This document shows positions 30,013 through 35,876 of a stretch of DNA of 64,000 nt, in pieces. The notes beneath the pieces were generated by a model. The model did no database searches. It was not told where the DNA came from and saw nothing but the letters and a program-made list of their open reading frames with translations. The translations under genes and the position numbers were made by a program. The DNA comes from Bordetella pseudohinzii (lineage in GTDB: Bacteria; Pseudomonadota; Gammaproteobacteria; Burkholderiales; Burkholderiaceae_B), in assembly GCF_000657795.2 (NCBI RefSeq), contig NZ_JHEP02000002.1, positions 124,001 through 188,000 of the forward strand, given 5' to 3'. Each line of letters begins with the position of its first letter. Position 1 is the first letter of the stretch.

Positions 30013-30837
30013 TCAGAGCAGCGGCGCGGGCATCGACGGATAGGGCTCGGCGGCCGGATGGGCGGCGCGCCAGGCCGCGGCCAGCGCATCGGCGCGATAA
30101 AAGGCCACGCCGGGGCGCGCGCCCAGCTCGCGCAAGAACTCGCCCACGCGGCGCGCGCGCGGCAACCGCCCCGAACCGCTGTCGCCGCGGGTATGCAGCG
30201 TCAGGTTGACATAGCCTCCGGCGCAATACTGGGCATCGGCCTCCTCGCGCCAAGCCTGGGCGGCGCGGGCGTCGCTGTGGCGCTGGGCAAAGAAATTGCT
30301 GTCGTTCAGATAATCGAACACCGGCAGCTCCACCAGGGTGGGGCCATCGCCCTGGCCCATGACGTAGGGCTTGTCATCGTCCTGGGCGCTGCTGTCGTAG
30401 GCATAGCCCGCCTGGGCCAGCGCCGGCAGCGTGGCCTGCGTCACCAGGCCGTTGAGCGAGCGCCACCCCTGGCTGCGCACGCCGGTCACCCGGGCCAGGG
30501 CCTCGCGGTCGCGCGCCAGCTGATCGAGCTGCTCGGCGGCGCCGGCGCGCTCGCGCACCCAGCCCCGCACCGCCACTTCGTGTCCGCCGTCGAGAATGGC
30601 GGCCAGCACCCGCGGATGCCGCTCCATGTCTTGCGGAATGACGAAGAAACTGGCCTTCACCCCGTTGTCCTCCAGCGCCTCGAACAGGTTCCAGATACCT
30701 TCGCGCGCGCCGTAGCGGCCATAGGAATAGCGGCCGAACAAACCGGCCTGGCCGGCGTTGGCCGCGTCCACCGCGTCGATGTCGACATTGATGCCCACCA
30801 TCACCGGGCAGGCGGCAAGCCCTTGCTTCGCGCTCAT
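30013..30837 (-). CDS. Polysaccharide-deacetylase-like protein lacking metal-binding histidines
   Basis: 274 residues of the NodB-homology/HpPgdA-like family. It keeps the general layout: VDIDA near residue 18, GGHEVAV (H86), GWRSLNG, YAYDSSAQDDDKPY and LTLHTRGD. The metal motif that reads H-G-Y-V-H in the partner gene is R-G-W-V-R here (R91 and R95), and the RGWRSP block is QGWRSL, so the usual zinc site is lost. It is probably not a normal deacetylase. Its ATG overlaps the stop of the intact paralog by four bases. A non-catalytic subunit of a heteromer is plausible; a different metal-free chemistry cannot be excluded. Last gene of the cassette. Confidence 0.82.
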   Translation of the reverse strand: MSAKQGLAACPVMVGINVDIDAVDAANAGQAGLFGRYSYGRYGAREGIWNLFEALEDNGVKASFFVIPQDMERHPRVLAAILDGGHEVAVRGWVRERAGAAEQLDQLARDREALARVTGVRSQGWRSLNGLVTQATLPALAQAGYAYDSSAQDDDKPYVMGQGDGPTLVELPVFDYLNDSNFFAQRHSDARAAQAWREEADAQYCAGGYVNLTLHTRGDSGSGRLPRARRVGEFLRELGARPGVAFYRADALAAAWRAAHPAAEPYPSMPAPLL

Positions 30838-31688
30838 ACTCGCACCTCATCGAATTGCTCGCTGGCGCTGGCGACCCAGCGCCGGATCTCGCTCAGCGTG
30901 GCGAATTTCACGTCCTCGTGACGCTGGATATGGCGCAAGGTCTCCTCGACCGCGCGCACACGTCTCGGCGTGCCCGAGCCCCAGCCGGCGCGCGGATGCA
31001 CGGTCAGCATGAAAAAACCGCCGCGCGCATAACGCTCGTCGAACTCGTCGCGCCACTGCGCCTGCACTTCGGACACCGGCGTCATGGAAAAGTGGAAGAA
31101 CGGGAAATCGTCCAGGCTGTAGGTATTGTTGGGGATCTCGACCATGCTGCGCCCCTGCCCCAGGTCCAGCAGATAGGGACGGTCCGCGTCCTTGTCGCTG
31201 CTGTCATACTCATAGCCCAGTTCGTGCAGCACCGGCAGCGTCACGCCGGTCTTCTGCCCGGACGGCGAGCGCCAGCCGCGCGGCGCCGTCCCAAGCAGGT
31301 CCGACAAGATGCGATGCGTCAGCCGCAGGCGCTGGGTTTCTTCGGCCGGCTCATACAGCGTGCCTTCATGCACATAGCCGTGGGCGGCGACTTCATGGCC
31401 ATCGGCATGAATGGCGCGCACCGCCTCCGGCGAGCACTGGGCGTCGTAGCCGGGCACGAAGAAGGTCGCCGGGATGTCCAGGCGCTCAAGCATGTCCAGA
31501 TGGCGCGGCACGCCGCGGCGCGCCGAATAGCAGCCGGCCGAATACATGCCGAAGGGCTCCAGGCCTTTGCCGACCTCATTGCCGGTGCCGTCGAAATCCA
31601 CGGTATAGGCCACCACGCAGCGCGCGCCGGCCAAGGTGGCCAGGGCCTCGGGCCGGGCCGCCAGGCGGGTCAATTGGGGATATGACAT
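30834..31688 (-). CDS. Polysaccharide deacetylase family hydrolase (HpPgdA/PuuE-like)
   Basis: 284 residues from MSYPQLTRLAARPEALATLA. Metal and catalytic motifs are intact: VDFDG (D31, D33), GHEVAAHGYVHEG (H103 and H107), RGWRSPSGQ, then EYDSSDKDADRPY and MLTVHPRAGWGSG. Relatives such as H. pylori PgdA and PuuE allantoinases hydrolyse amide or imide bonds (known), so a small amide substrate is as likely as a polysaccharide. No signal peptide, so it acts in the cytoplasm, against a cell-wall role. I chose ATG 31686-31688 because the upstream in-frame extension would run through the C45 gene. Coupled to the degenerate paralog. Confidence 0.88.
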   Translation of the reverse strand: MSYPQLTRLAARPEALATLAGARCVVAYTVDFDGTGNEVGKGLEPFGMYSAGCYSARRGVPRHLDMLERLDIPATFFVPGYDAQCSPEAVRAIHADGHEVAAHGYVHEGTLYEPAEETQRLRLTHRILSDLLGTAPRGWRSPSGQKTGVTLPVLHELGYEYDSSDKDADRPYLLDLGQGRSMVEIPNNTYSLDDFPFFHFSMTPVSEVQAQWRDEFDERYARGGFFMLTVHPRAGWGSGTPRRVRAVEETLRHIQRHEDVKFATLSEIRRWVASASEQFDEVRV

Positions 31689-31705: not shown

Positions 31706-32821
31706 TCAGTCGGCAAAACCGTAAGCGGTGAACTCGGCGGATACGGCGGGCAGCGCCGCGACCTCCATGAGGCGCGCGGCCGGCTGTATCACGACGGTGG
31801 CGACCGTGGCGCTCAGATTGCTGGCCAGGTTCAGCCTCGGCGGGCGGCAGACCGACCAGGGCGAGGCAAAATCGTCCAGCAAGGCGGCCTTGACGTGCGC
31901 CACCTCGATGGCGCCGTGATGCGGCTCGAGCAGCTCGCGCACGCGCGTATCCCGATACAGGGTATCGGGCGTGGAGGCAATGCCGGTGTCGCGCAACTTG
32001 CCCAGCGCGACGGGGCTGAGCCAATGGTTGGCGTGCACCAGCAGGCCGCCGCTGGGATGCAGCAGAAAGGTCTCTTCGGGTGCGCACTCGAAATTGACCG
32101 CCACGCCGCCCGCGTGGCTGACCATCATATTGTTGGAGCCGGACTTGCGCGTCACATAGGCCGCGCGCATGGCCAGCGCCAGGTGCTCCTGTTCGAGGAT
32201 CTTGCGCCGGATGAGCGGCAGCGGCACGCCGACCTTGCGGTAGTCCAGGTTGGACTCCAGGAAGTTGGCGGTCAGCGCGATGCCGGCTGCGTTCAGGCCC
32301 GACCGGGCCAGGCCGCCGGCCTCGGTGAACGTCAGGATGTCCGGCCCGTCCTCGCGGCGCACGCGCAGCACCACCGCGGTCTCCGCGCACTCGTGCTTCC
32401 AGTCCCAATTCTGCGCGTGCAGCAGCTGGCCGCGCGCGGTGGCGCCCGGCATGACGACCACGCCGGTGCAGCCGTCATCGACTTCGCCGGCGGCCTGCAG
32501 GCGCTCGCGCAGCGCCGGGCTGGCCGCCAGCTTGAGGACTTCGCTGCGCGCGTTAAGCAGCACCACATCCTCGAACGGGATGCCGGCGCCCTCGGCGATG
32601 CCGCGCATCTCCTCGACGTGCGCGGCGTCGAAGCCCTCCATCACCGGCAGATAGTCGCGGATCACCGCGGCCAGCTTGGGCTGGTCCAGGCCGAGCTTCT
32701 GTATCTGCGCCGAATAGTGGCTGACGCCCTTGACGATGCGCTCGGCGGCCTGGCGCCCGTATTGCCGGCCCCGCTCCCGCGGCGCGCCCGATATCTCGAT
32801 CAATGGAAATGCCTGGGTCAT
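31706..32821 (-). CDS. C45 family peptidase / acyl-CoA:6-aminopenicillanate acyltransferase-like hydrolase
   Basis: 371 residues. The N-terminus has the family lead IEISGAPRERGRQYGRQAAE, and the nucleophile is in DDGCTGVVV (Cys118), which becomes the N-terminal residue after self-cleavage in the fungal penicillin acyltransferase and related Ntn hydrolases. QNWDWKHE and SGSNNMMVSH support the family. The cleavage between G117 and C118 is inferred. The enzyme probably hydrolyses or transfers an N-acyl group on an amide substrate. It lies between the Bug gene (34-base gap) and the deacetylase (17-base gap), in one leftward operon, which suggests a shared amide-degrading pathway. Confidence 0.87.
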   Translation of the reverse strand: MTQAFPLIEISGAPRERGRQYGRQAAERIVKGVSHYSAQIQKLGLDQPKLAAVIRDYLPVMEGFDAAHVEEMRGIAEGAGIPFEDVVLLNARSEVLKLAASPALRERLQAAGEVDDGCTGVVVMPGATARGQLLHAQNWDWKHECAETAVVLRVRREDGPDILTFTEAGGLARSGLNAAGIALTANFLESNLDYRKVGVPLPLIRRKILEQEHLALAMRAAYVTRKSGSNNMMVSHAGGVAVNFECAPEETFLLHPSGGLLVHANHWLSPVALGKLRDTGIASTPDTLYRDTRVRELLEPHHGAIEVAHVKAALLDDFASPWSVCRPPRLNLASNLSATVATVVIQPAARLMEVAALPAVSAEFTAYGFAD

Positions 32822-32855: not shown

Positions 32856-33839
32856 TCAGATCAGTTTGGCGCGACGCAACTGCTCGCCGCTGCTTTCATA
32901 GGCCTCGCGGGCGTAAGCCGCGAAACCCTGGGGGTCGCGATACCAGGCGGGCTGGTTGAGCACGGCCAGCGCCTCGGCGACCGCCGGCGCCTGCATGGCG
33001 CGCCTGAATCCCTGGTGCAGCGACGCCACGATATCGGGCGCCATGCCCTTGGGGCCCACCAGGCCCATGGGCGCGCTCAGCACGACCTCGAAGCCCTGCT
33101 CGCGCGCCGTGGGCACCTGCGGCCAGGCCGCGAAACGGTTCTCGCCCAAGGCCGCCAGCAGCCGCAGTTTGCCGCTCTTGATCTGCGGCACATAGGTGCC
33201 CACCGAATCGATCACGACCGCCACATGCCCGCCCATCACGGCCGTCACCATGTCGGAGCCGCTTTTGAACGGAATATGCTGGAACTTCGCGCCATAGCGG
33301 GCTTCGATGTCGACCATGGACACCGGCACCAGCGTGGTGGGATCGCCCGCGGCGTACTGGACCTGGCCCGGACGCTGCTGGCCGGCCCGCATGAAATCGG
33401 CGAAGGTCTTGAACGGCGAGTCGGCGCGCACCACCGCGCAGAACTCCAGGCTGGTCATGCCGATGACATAGCTGAAGTCGGTCAGGGGGGAAAACCCGAT
33501 CTGCGGTTCCAGCCAGGGGGCGCGGAAGGTCGAGCCCGTGGTCATGGCCAAGGTGTAGCCATCGGGGCGCGCCCGGGCCACGACGGCGGCCGACAGCGTG
33601 CCGCCCGCGCCAGGTTTGTTTTCGACCAGGACGTTCTGGCCGAAGACCGGCATGGCGGCCATGCTCAAGGCGCGCATGTACTGATCCACCGAGCCGCCCG
33701 CGCCAAAGGGGCACAGCAGGGTGATGGGACGGCTGGGGAAGTCGGCCGCGCGCGCCTGGCGGCCCAACAGGGAGGCGGCCAGCGGCGCGCCCAATGCGGC
33801 CAGCGCGCGGCGGCGCCCGGCGGAAAATCGGCTCGGCAT
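32856..33839 (-). CDS. Bug family (TctC-like) periplasmic substrate-binding protein
   Basis: 327 residues. A signal with an RRR twin-arginine-like start (SAGRRRALAALGAPLAASLLGRQARA) precedes the TctC fold: [47 protein letters not shown] and MGLVGPKGMAPDI. Bug proteins bind small carboxylates, and Bordetella genomes hold very many, most without adjacent TctAB membrane genes, as here. The start at 33839 has AGGAG at good spacing; the ATG two codons upstream is too near. The ligand cannot be read from sequence. Confidence 0.92.
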   Translation of the reverse strand: MPSRFSAGRRRALAALGAPLAASLLGRQARAADFPSRPITLLCPFGAGGSVDQYMRALSMAAMPVFGQNVLVENKPGAGGTLSAAVVARARPDGYTLAMTTGSTFRAPWLEPQIGFSPLTDFSYVIGMTSLEFCAVVRADSPFKTFADFMRAGQQRPGQVQYAAGDPTTLVPVSMVDIEARYGAKFQHIPFKSGSDMVTAVMGGHVAVVIDSVGTYVPQIKSGKLRLLAALGENRFAAWPQVPTAREQGFEVVLSAPMGLVGPKGMAPDIVASLHQGFRRAMQAPAVAEALAVLNQPAWYRDPQGFAAYAREAYESSGEQLRRAKLI

Positions 33840-33865: not shown

Positions 33866-34873
33866 TCAGCCCGCGGTCACTTTGCCGGCCTTCACCAGGC
33901 TGCCCCACTTCTCCGACTCCCGAGCGATGAACTCGCCCATCTCCCGCGGCGTGGTGTACTGGGTTTCCAGGCCGGCCGCCTTCAAGGCGTCGAAGGCATT
34001 GCCATCTATGGTCTTGCGTATGGCTTCGTTCAAGGCCCGGATGGCGGCATCGGGCGTGCCCGCCGGCGCCATCACCCCGCCCCAGCCTATGGCCACGATG
34101 GAAGGGAAATCGCTCTCTGCGATCGTGGGCACATCGGGCAGCACGGGCGAGCGCTGCGCGCCCGTGGTCGCCAGCGCCAGCACCTTGCCGGCGCGGATAT
34201 GGGGCAATTGATTGATGACCGTGTCCATGAGGACCGGGAACTGGCCGCCCAGGAAGTCACTCACCGCGGCCGAGGCGGAACGGTACGGCACGCCGGGCAG
34301 GTCCAGCCCGGCCTCGCTCTTGAGCAATTCCATGGCGAGGTGGCTGGAACTGCCATTGGCCGTGATGCCATAGAAAAACTTGCCCGGGTGCTTGCGCAGC
34401 AGCGCGACCAGGTCCTTGAGCGTCTTGGCCTCGAAGTCGGGGCGCACGACCAGCACATTGTTGTATTTGCAGACCAATGAGACCGGCGCGAAATCCTTGA
34501 CCGGGTCATACGGCAGGTCGGGATAGAGAAACTGGTTGACCGTATGCGTGCCGGTGATGGCAAACAGCAGACTGTGCCCGTCGGGCGTGGCGCGGGCGAC
34601 GGCCTGGGCGCCGATGATGCCCGCGGCGCCGGGCATGTTCTTGACCACCACCGCCTGGCTGATGCCCTCGCTCAAGCCCTTGGCCGTCACGCGGGCCACC
34701 ACATCGGTGCCCGCGCCCGGACCGCCGGGCACGACCATTTCCACCGGTCCCTGGCCGGCCAGCCCTTGCGCCAGCGCCTGGCGCAGCGGCAAGGCCAGCG
34801 CCGTGGCCGCGGCCAGGCCCAGCGCCTGGCGACGCGACATGGAAATACCGCTCAACAATGATTTGTCCAACAT
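33866..34873 (-). CDS. Bug family (TctC-like) periplasmic substrate-binding protein
   Basis: 335 residues. Signal peptide with SRRQALGLAAATALALPLRQALA, then PVEMVVPGGPGAGTDVVAR, VVKNMPGAAGIIGAQAVA, ATPDGHSLLFA and GWGGVMAPAGTPDA, all Bug-family hallmarks. It leads the cassette and is 26 bases before the second Bug gene. Two binding proteins in one operon suggest two related ligands or a duplicated gene, but the sequences are clearly divergent. The promoter should lie in the AT-rich gap shared with the divergent LysR gene. Confidence 0.92.
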   Translation of the reverse strand: MLDKSLLSGISMSRRQALGLAAATALALPLRQALAQGLAGQGPVEMVVPGGPGAGTDVVARVTAKGLSEGISQAVVVKNMPGAAGIIGAQAVARATPDGHSLLFAITGTHTVNQFLYPDLPYDPVKDFAPVSLVCKYNNVLVVRPDFEAKTLKDLVALLRKHPGKFFYGITANGSSSHLAMELLKSEAGLDLPGVPYRSASAAVSDFLGGQFPVLMDTVINQLPHIRAGKVLALATTGAQRSPVLPDVPTIAESDFPSIVAIGWGGVMAPAGTPDAAIRALNEAIRKTIDGNAFDALKAAGLETQYTTPREMGEFIARESEKWGSLVKAGKVTAG

Positions 34874-34951: not shown

Positions 34952-34991
34952 ATATTTTCATTATCAAAAGAAAATCTTGTGTAGGTGGGGC

Positions 34992-35876
34992 ATGAGCAGC
35001 ATCCGCGTTTTCCGCAGTTTCGTGGCCGTGGCCACGCATGGTTCTTTCGCCGCCGCATCCGAGCATGTCAGCCTCACCCCGGCCGCCGTGGGCCTGCAGA
35101 TACAGACGCTGGAAAAAGACCTGGGCTACACCGTCTTTGACCGCGTGGGCAAGACCGTGGTGCTCAATCAGCGCGGCCACCGCCTGCTGCCGCGGGCGCG
35201 GCAATTGCTCGTGATGTACGAAGACATGCAGCATATGCAGCTTGACCAGCGGGAGCTGGCCGGCACGGTCAAGGTGGCCTGCATCGCCACGGCCATGAGC
35301 ATGGTGGTGCGCGCGGTGCTGCGTATCCGCGAACACTATCCGCGCCTGAGCATCGAACCCGGCATCAGTTACTCGGGCGCGCTGGTTTCACGCATCAAGG
35401 AGGGCGAGATCGACGCGGCGGTATCGGTGCGAAGCCCGCACAAGTTGCCGGCCGGCGTGCTCTACACCCAGCTCTACCGCGAGCCGCTGGTCTTTGTCGC
35501 CAATGCCCGCACGCCCCGCGCTGATCCGCGCGAGGTCCTGGCCACGCGCATGTTTCTGCGGGTGTCGCGCAGCTCCAATACGGGCACGCTGATCGACGAG
35601 TTCATGCGCCGCCTGCACCTGCGCACCCGCGATGTGCTGGAGATGAATGCCATGCGCACCATCATCGACATGGTCAAGGAGGACCTGGGCGTCACCTTGC
35701 TGCCCCTGCCCCGCGGCACCGATTGGGACCGCGATCCGGACCTGCGCCTGGAATACTTCGACGATCCGCAGGCGCACCGCAACATCGGTCTGTTCGAGAG
35801 CGAGAGCCGCAGTTTTCTCACCAGCATCCTGCGCGAGCATCTGCAGGACCTGGCCGCGCCGGCCGGCGCGGCTTAG
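34992..35876 (+). CDS. LysR family transcriptional regulator
   Basis: 294 residues. Winged HTH at about 1-60: RVFRSFVAVATHGSFAAASEHVSLTPAAVGLQIQTLE (core in two parts), FDRVGKTVVLNQRGHRLLPRA. The rest is a periplasmic-binding-like effector domain (about 90-290). It is divergent from the five-gene cassette and very probably controls it. The ATG at 34992 is behind GTAGGTGGGG; longer in-frame extensions were rejected as they would cross the operator gap. Its stop overlaps the stop of the convergent helicase by three bases (35873-35876 span). Confidence 0.92.
   Translation: MSSIRVFRSFVAVATHGSFAAASEHVSLTPAAVGLQIQTLEKDLGYTVFDRVGKTVVLNQRGHRLLPRARQLLVMYEDMQHMQLDQRELAGTVKVACIATAMSMVVRAVLRIREHYPRLSIEPGISYSGALVSRIKEGEIDAAVSVRSPHKLPAGVLYTQLYREPLVFVANARTPRADPREVLATRMFLRVSRSSNTGTLIDEFMRRLHLRTRDVLEMNAMRTIIDMVKEDLGVTLLPLPRGTDWDRDPDLRLEYFDDPQAHRNIGLFESESRSFLTSILREHLQDLAAPAGAA

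Follow-up and report, generated by a model that had tools for sequence, protein, structure and literature searches.

Overlapping NodB-fold genes of Bordetella pseudohinzii and its relatives encode an intact putative amidohydrolase and a degenerate paralogue that is probably its partner subunit

Results

Organization of the locus

The window, the whole stretch of 64,000 nucleotides from Bordetella pseudohinzii that was analysed here, carries on its minus strand two open polysaccharide-deacetylase-like (NodB-fold) reading frames, designated U and D in the order of transcription, the ends of which overlap. These genes and their neighbors are as follows.

30834..31688, minus strand: U, 284 aa, NodB fold (PuuE/HpPgdA type), with the intact triad D33/H103/H107, base D31, and H231
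30013..30837, minus strand: D, 274 aa, NodB-fold paralogue, in which the base Asp is replaced by N17 and the metal His by R91 and R95; D19, R126, D148 and H215 retained
30834..30837, minus strand: ATGA, the four bases in which the end of U and the beginning of D overlap
31706..32821, minus strand: C45 autoproteolytic acyltransferase/hydrolase (AAT), 5' of U and in the same direction (NCBIfam NF040521, E 2.4e-86; Pfam AAT)
32856..33839, minus strand: TctC/Bug-type periplasmic receptor (Pfam TctC, E 1.8e-61)
33866..34873, minus strand: second TctC/Bug-type periplasmic receptor (Pfam TctC, E 2.6e-68)
34968..35876, plus strand: divergent LysR-type regulator (profile match), likewise placed in L027-L031

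U and D are 38% identical, and both match Pfam Polysacc_deac_1 (PF01522) above the Pfam cut-off (E 2.7e-17 and 3.8e-13, respectively). The nearest named relative that was retrieved is Bordetella hinzii LMG 13501, the D of which is 94% identical to that of the window. An earlier reading made from the DNA alone, termed here the sequence-only reading, had described two adjoining deacetylase-like genes with a 4-base overlap and divergent motifs, and this description is correct: ATGA lies at the junction, and U contains HEVAAHGYVHE (H103, H107) and RGWRSP while D contains HEVAVRGWVRE (R91, R95) and QGWRSL.

Active-site residues of the two proteins

Active-site positions were mapped by a profile alignment to PDB 3qbu together with excerpts of the paper on HpPgdA (PMC3084791), which describe a homotetramer in which Zn is bound by Asp14, His86, and His90. 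In this alignment the three zinc ligands correspond to D33, H103, and H107 of U, while Asp12 and His247 correspond to D31 and H231. In D of the window these columns hold N17 in place of the base, D19 as the metal Asp, R91 and R95 in place of the metal His, and H215, and D also has the motif-3 Arg (R126) and the motif-4 Asp (D148). The statement that both metal ligands are replaced in D is right in that both His are Arg, but there are three ligands, and the third (D33 of U) survives as D19. The sequence-only reading had also overlooked that the catalytic-base Asp of motif 1 (D31 of U) is Asn in D (N17), which is the most constant change of all (23/23 of the D sequences aligned below). The change from RGWRSP to QGWRSL, on the other hand, leaves the motif-3 Arg in place, since R140 of U is retained as R126 of D. 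Judged by the residues of metal-dependent CE4-type enzymes, an Asp-His-His triad and a base Asp, U of the window has all four, while the triad is complete in 0/23 D sequences, all of which have Asn in place of the base Asp.

Recurrence of the pair in relatives

The alignment comprised 23 U and 23 D sequences from the window, other genomes of the same family or order, named contigs (Achromobacter denitrificans, Bordetella genomosp. 13, and Bordetella sp. BOR01), and two alphaproteobacterial plasmids (Rhizobium etli IE4803 and Microvirga sp. VF16), with the omission of three near-copies having the same motifs (L035, L037, L038) and of three contigs (L026, L029, L030) identical to L005, L006, and L007. 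The U triad and H231 are present in 23/23, and the base Asp and the motif-3 Arg each in 20/23. In the three exceptions, which are the same for both residues (L017, L019, L116), the base Asp is His and the motif-3 Arg is Cys, with the metal triad retained, and U of this branch may carry out a different chemistry.

In D, N17 is found in 23/23 and the metal Asp in 19/23. The first metal-His position is Arg (19/23) or His (4/23), the second metal His is lost in 22/23, its position taking seven different residues, and the motif-5 His is His in 16, Asn in six, and Ser in one. In D of R. etli both His are present, but the metal Asp is replaced by Gln, the base by Asn, and the motif-5 His by Ser, so the damage differs among D proteins. 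The expectation that a degenerate form recurs next to an intact paralogue across species is therefore borne out by the 23 pairs, but not in the exact R-x3-R form, which occurs in only five of the 23 rows, all of them within the tree's Bordetella/Achromobacter branch, and which was dropped as a conserved state of D. The contrast between an intact and a degenerate protein is more than chance, as it is seen again in the 23 aligned pairs.

The two genes occur together. A D-profile search of 399 genomes of the order gave ten with matches above 340 bits and a further 16 with matches at E 1e-30 but of no more than 184.4 bits, which are other deacetylases, including the second lineage (U2/D2) described below. 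A U-profile search at E 1e-70 found the identical ten genomes, the best candidates (up to six) of each genome being scored in both searches. At the class level 4/369 genomes matched D at E 1e-30, and at the phylum level 65/398 at E 1e-25; both counts include the genome of the window, and the remaining genomes matched more weakly, through members of other families or of the second pair lineage. In the genomes picked for carrying pairs (16 entries, 15 different genomes, all candidates scored), U and D are adjacent and one to one, with 20 rows of each, or 18 of each when the genome entered twice is counted once.

U precedes D, and the U stop overlaps the D start, in 26/26 loci. With the ATG nearest the junction taken as the start, the overlap is 4 bases in 18 loci, 17 bases in seven, and 1 base in one (computed for 20 loci and taken from coordinates for L008-L013). 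Among the ORFs of loci L001-L090 there was no two-domain ORF that would be a U-D fusion. An obligate heteromer of a catalytic subunit and a pseudoenzyme was to be recognized by joint occurrence with an intact paralogue and by coupling to it, and both are found for D. The U and D distance matrices agree (Mantel r 0.95, 0/5000 permutations), while the nearest row is identical for the two proteins in just 15/23, a result that was counted against D being a partner subunit. Matching trees and joint presence do not require contact between the proteins, because linked genes alone give both.

Residues conserved in D and selection

Residues invariant in D were compared with the U columns in a joint alignment. 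Most of them, such as G35, Y42, R126, D148, D153, D155, and R217, are conserved in U as well, and six positions conserved in D differ in U. N17 (23/23) stands against Asp (20) or His (3) in U, R36 (22/23) against a variable position, R186 (22/23) against Ser (20) or Gly (3), R191 (23/23) against Glu (22) or Asp (1), which is a change of charge, D219 (23/23) against Gly in 23/23, and R224 (23/23) against Thr in 21/23; differences at H86, L137, G218, and L252 are less telling. Such D-specific conserved residues are as expected, from the sequences, for a protein with its own kept role. By a counting method, seven comparisons gave dN/dS of 0.13-0.37 for D and 0.09-0.28 for U, with D evolving somewhat faster and dS exceeding 1 for the deepest comparison. 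U and D form a conserved pair that is under selection. Neither of the signs by which recent decay was to be recognized is seen, in that an intact triad occurs in 0/23 aligned D proteins and there is no inner stop in the D matches above 340 bits, a profile search of this kind being one that would partly miss broken copies.

Predicted fold and characterized relatives

The predicted single-chain models of D (pLDDT 85.8, pTM 0.88) and U (pLDDT 84.6, pTM 0.88) match the PuuE/HpPgdA group, the closest solved structures being 3rxz, 3qbu, 1z7a, 3cl6, and 3s6o. The best match for both is 3rxz, a putative deacetylase of Mycobacterium smegmatis, which differs from D in that its His pair is retained in the alignment. 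HpPgdA (HP0310, PDB 3qbu) resembles the pair in its fold group and in the metal, base, and H231 residues of U, and the genes of its homologues are found near importers; it differs in having identical Zn sites in a homotetramer, and a degenerate partner is not mentioned in the excerpts of its description. PuuE allantoinase (PDB 3cl6) belongs to the same fold group and, according to excerpts of PMC10967932, is a member that is not metal-dependent, in which Trp stands at the second metal His and neither Asp of motif 1 is present, and which acts on a small ring amide. These changes, with the first His retained, are different from those of D, and PuuE-like rows form a separate clade. Membership of U and D in the PuuE family was rejected on this ground and because they score 80.5 and 59.8 bits, respectively, against the TIGR03212 equivalog cut-off of 424.6 bits. 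The CE4 proteins BA3943 (6hm9/7bkf), BA0150 (4m1b), and EcCDA (2vyo) are likewise NodB folds that are termed pseudoenzymes or probably inactive, but they are more distant NodB domains, and coupling to an intact paralogue is not mentioned in the excerpts of their descriptions. A search of open-access full texts found no described pair of the U/D kind.

A second pair lineage

Six loci (L108-L113; for example, the pair at L111:7514-9374) contain an intact gene, U2 (FD-x-DGPT, YHG-x-x-HE), followed by a degenerate one, D2. An MmgE/PrpD-type gene is nearby in 6/6, while 5/6 also have a family 3 solute receptor and an argininosuccinate-lyase-like gene, the stretch of L113 starting at the pair so that its preceding genes lie outside the data. 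Such clusters are reminiscent of iminodisuccinate or EDDS breakdown. The first metal His of D2 is replaced in 6/6 (by Ser, Ile, or Ala), the second being retained in two (L110, L113). As read by eye, the metal Asp of motif 1 is Asn or Ser in 5/6 and the base Asp is retained in 5/6; the automatic columns place motif 1 of D2 differently in some rows, which makes this reading less sure.

In a careful tree, made after the removal of ten loci whose rows were long or near-copies, with a wider copy put in for one of these, U and D are joined with support of 98/98 and U2 and D2 with 100/96. A single clade of D and D2 was rejected (p-AU 0.013), the groups having been named once a first tree had been inspected. 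In the initial, quick tree with more long rows U and D were not joined, which was counted against the partner role. Because of the two separate joins and the rejection of a D + D2 clade, the same division between an intact and a degenerate protein seems to have evolved twice, by apparently separate duplications as judged from the trees. In the double-pair genomes G114, G100, and G120, each D tracks its own U in the tree. The U clade and the D clade each include the Rhizobium and Microvirga plasmid copies, and therefore either the U/D split is old or the pair has moved as a unit.

Gene neighborhood

With wider flanks and tblastn at E 1e-12, a C45 gene is found within the stretch in 12/15 pair loci (the exceptions being L103, L104, and L116), and a Bug-type or dipeptide-type solute receptor in 15/15. 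Flanking the R. etli pair are genes for a class III aminotransferase and, by annotation, for succinate-semialdehyde dehydrogenase, and release of an amino acid or amine is suggested by their presence. On plasmid pRetIE4803c (L115:3175-9188), the genes for the C45 hydrolase, the aminotransferase, U, D, and the annotated dehydrogenase are consecutive, and this locus is a good place to search for the substrate. From the C45 genes, the solute receptors, and the R. etli flanking genes we infer the uptake of a small molecule and the hydrolysis of an amide.

M81/MlrC-type metallopeptidase genes are also close to the pair at L103:12182-13681 and L105:1100-2608. On a plasmid of Chelatococcus sp. CO-6, genes for an amino acid ABC transporter and an annotated argH are close to a deacetylase-like gene in which the His pair is intact (L117:4839-8124), with no degenerate partner in the stretch shown.

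Discussion

Together, U and D probably constitute a PuuE/HpPgdA-type hydrolase of small amides that is hetero-oligomeric, in which U would be catalytic and D a metal-less partner. The two-gene arrangement recurs in many relatives, and for this reason the role of a partner subunit is the most likely one for D. The most economical explanation is that a zinc enzyme and its metal-less sister assemble into a hetero-oligomer, which would be a variation on two known kinds, NodB-fold amidohydrolases and pseudoenzyme partners. Counted against it is the retention in D of R126, D148, and, in 16/23, the motif-5 His, which would not be required of a pure scaffold, and so are the sharing of most invariant D residues with U and the altered base and motif-3 residues of U itself in L017, L019, and L116.

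The main rival, which we consider unlikely, is that D is itself an active, metal-independent enzyme that catalyzes a separate step beside U. PuuE is a precedent within the fold (PMC10967932, in the excerpts used), D has invariant polar residues (N17, R126, D148, R191, R217, D219, R224), and purifying selection is consistent with an enzyme in its own right. However, the positions that would have to act are those that vary in D, with Asn (6) or Ser (1) for the motif-5 His, seven residues at the second metal position, and Arg (19) or His (4) at the first. In the searches of the order and of the pair-carrying genomes, moreover, D is found only beside U, for which a free-standing enzyme would have no need, and D lies outside the PuuE clade. 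Alternatively, D could bind a ligand or have a regulatory role, sensing the substrate of U or its product but not joining U in a stable complex. The arginines conserved next to the lost catalytic residues would suit such a sensor, but adjacency, overlap, and one-to-one copies point to a fixed stoichiometry, and this seems distinctly improbable. That D is a decaying duplicate with no role, to which the loss of metal and base residues and its somewhat faster evolution might point, is barely credible and was rejected on its dN/dS (0.13-0.37), the recurrence of N17 and of the intact/degenerate contrast in the 23 aligned pairs, and its D-specific conserved residues, the plasmid copies in both clades also indicating an old split or transfer as a unit.

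In the proposed hetero-oligomer, U would bear the zinc site and perform the chemistry, while D, a paralogue born of a local duplication, would have lost the metal and with it the activity. The gene overlap would allow U and D to be made in step, and D may have been kept as a partner in assembly and in the pocket of a PuuE/HpPgdA-type ring, the solved relative HpPgdA being a homotetramer in the excerpts of its description. In most D proteins R91, at the former first metal His, would lie beside D19 and probably neutralizes it in place of zinc. D19 accompanies R91 in 19/19 rows, and in the rows with His instead of R91 the residue at D19 is His or Gln (4/4); this pattern goes back to about one deep split within the D tree, which was counted against the partner role. 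The fuller proposal, that arginine replaces zinc in the D barrel (R91 held by D19), that this metal-free site works with the zinc site of U in one hetero-oligomer, and that the division arose at least twice, is doubtful as a whole. The Bug receptors would import a small molecule, and the C45 hydrolase and the U/D enzyme, which is presumably cytoplasmic, would cut its amide bonds.

Both genes are labeled polysaccharide deacetylase by Pfam-type profiles and in the single annotated plasmid record that contains such a pair. If the above interpretation is true, the pair is instead a two-subunit small-amide hydrolase, and U expressed alone may fail. The two apparently separate duplications, with metal ligands lost in the same downstream gene, would then be a natural replicate of the question of why enzymes keep a dead sister subunit.
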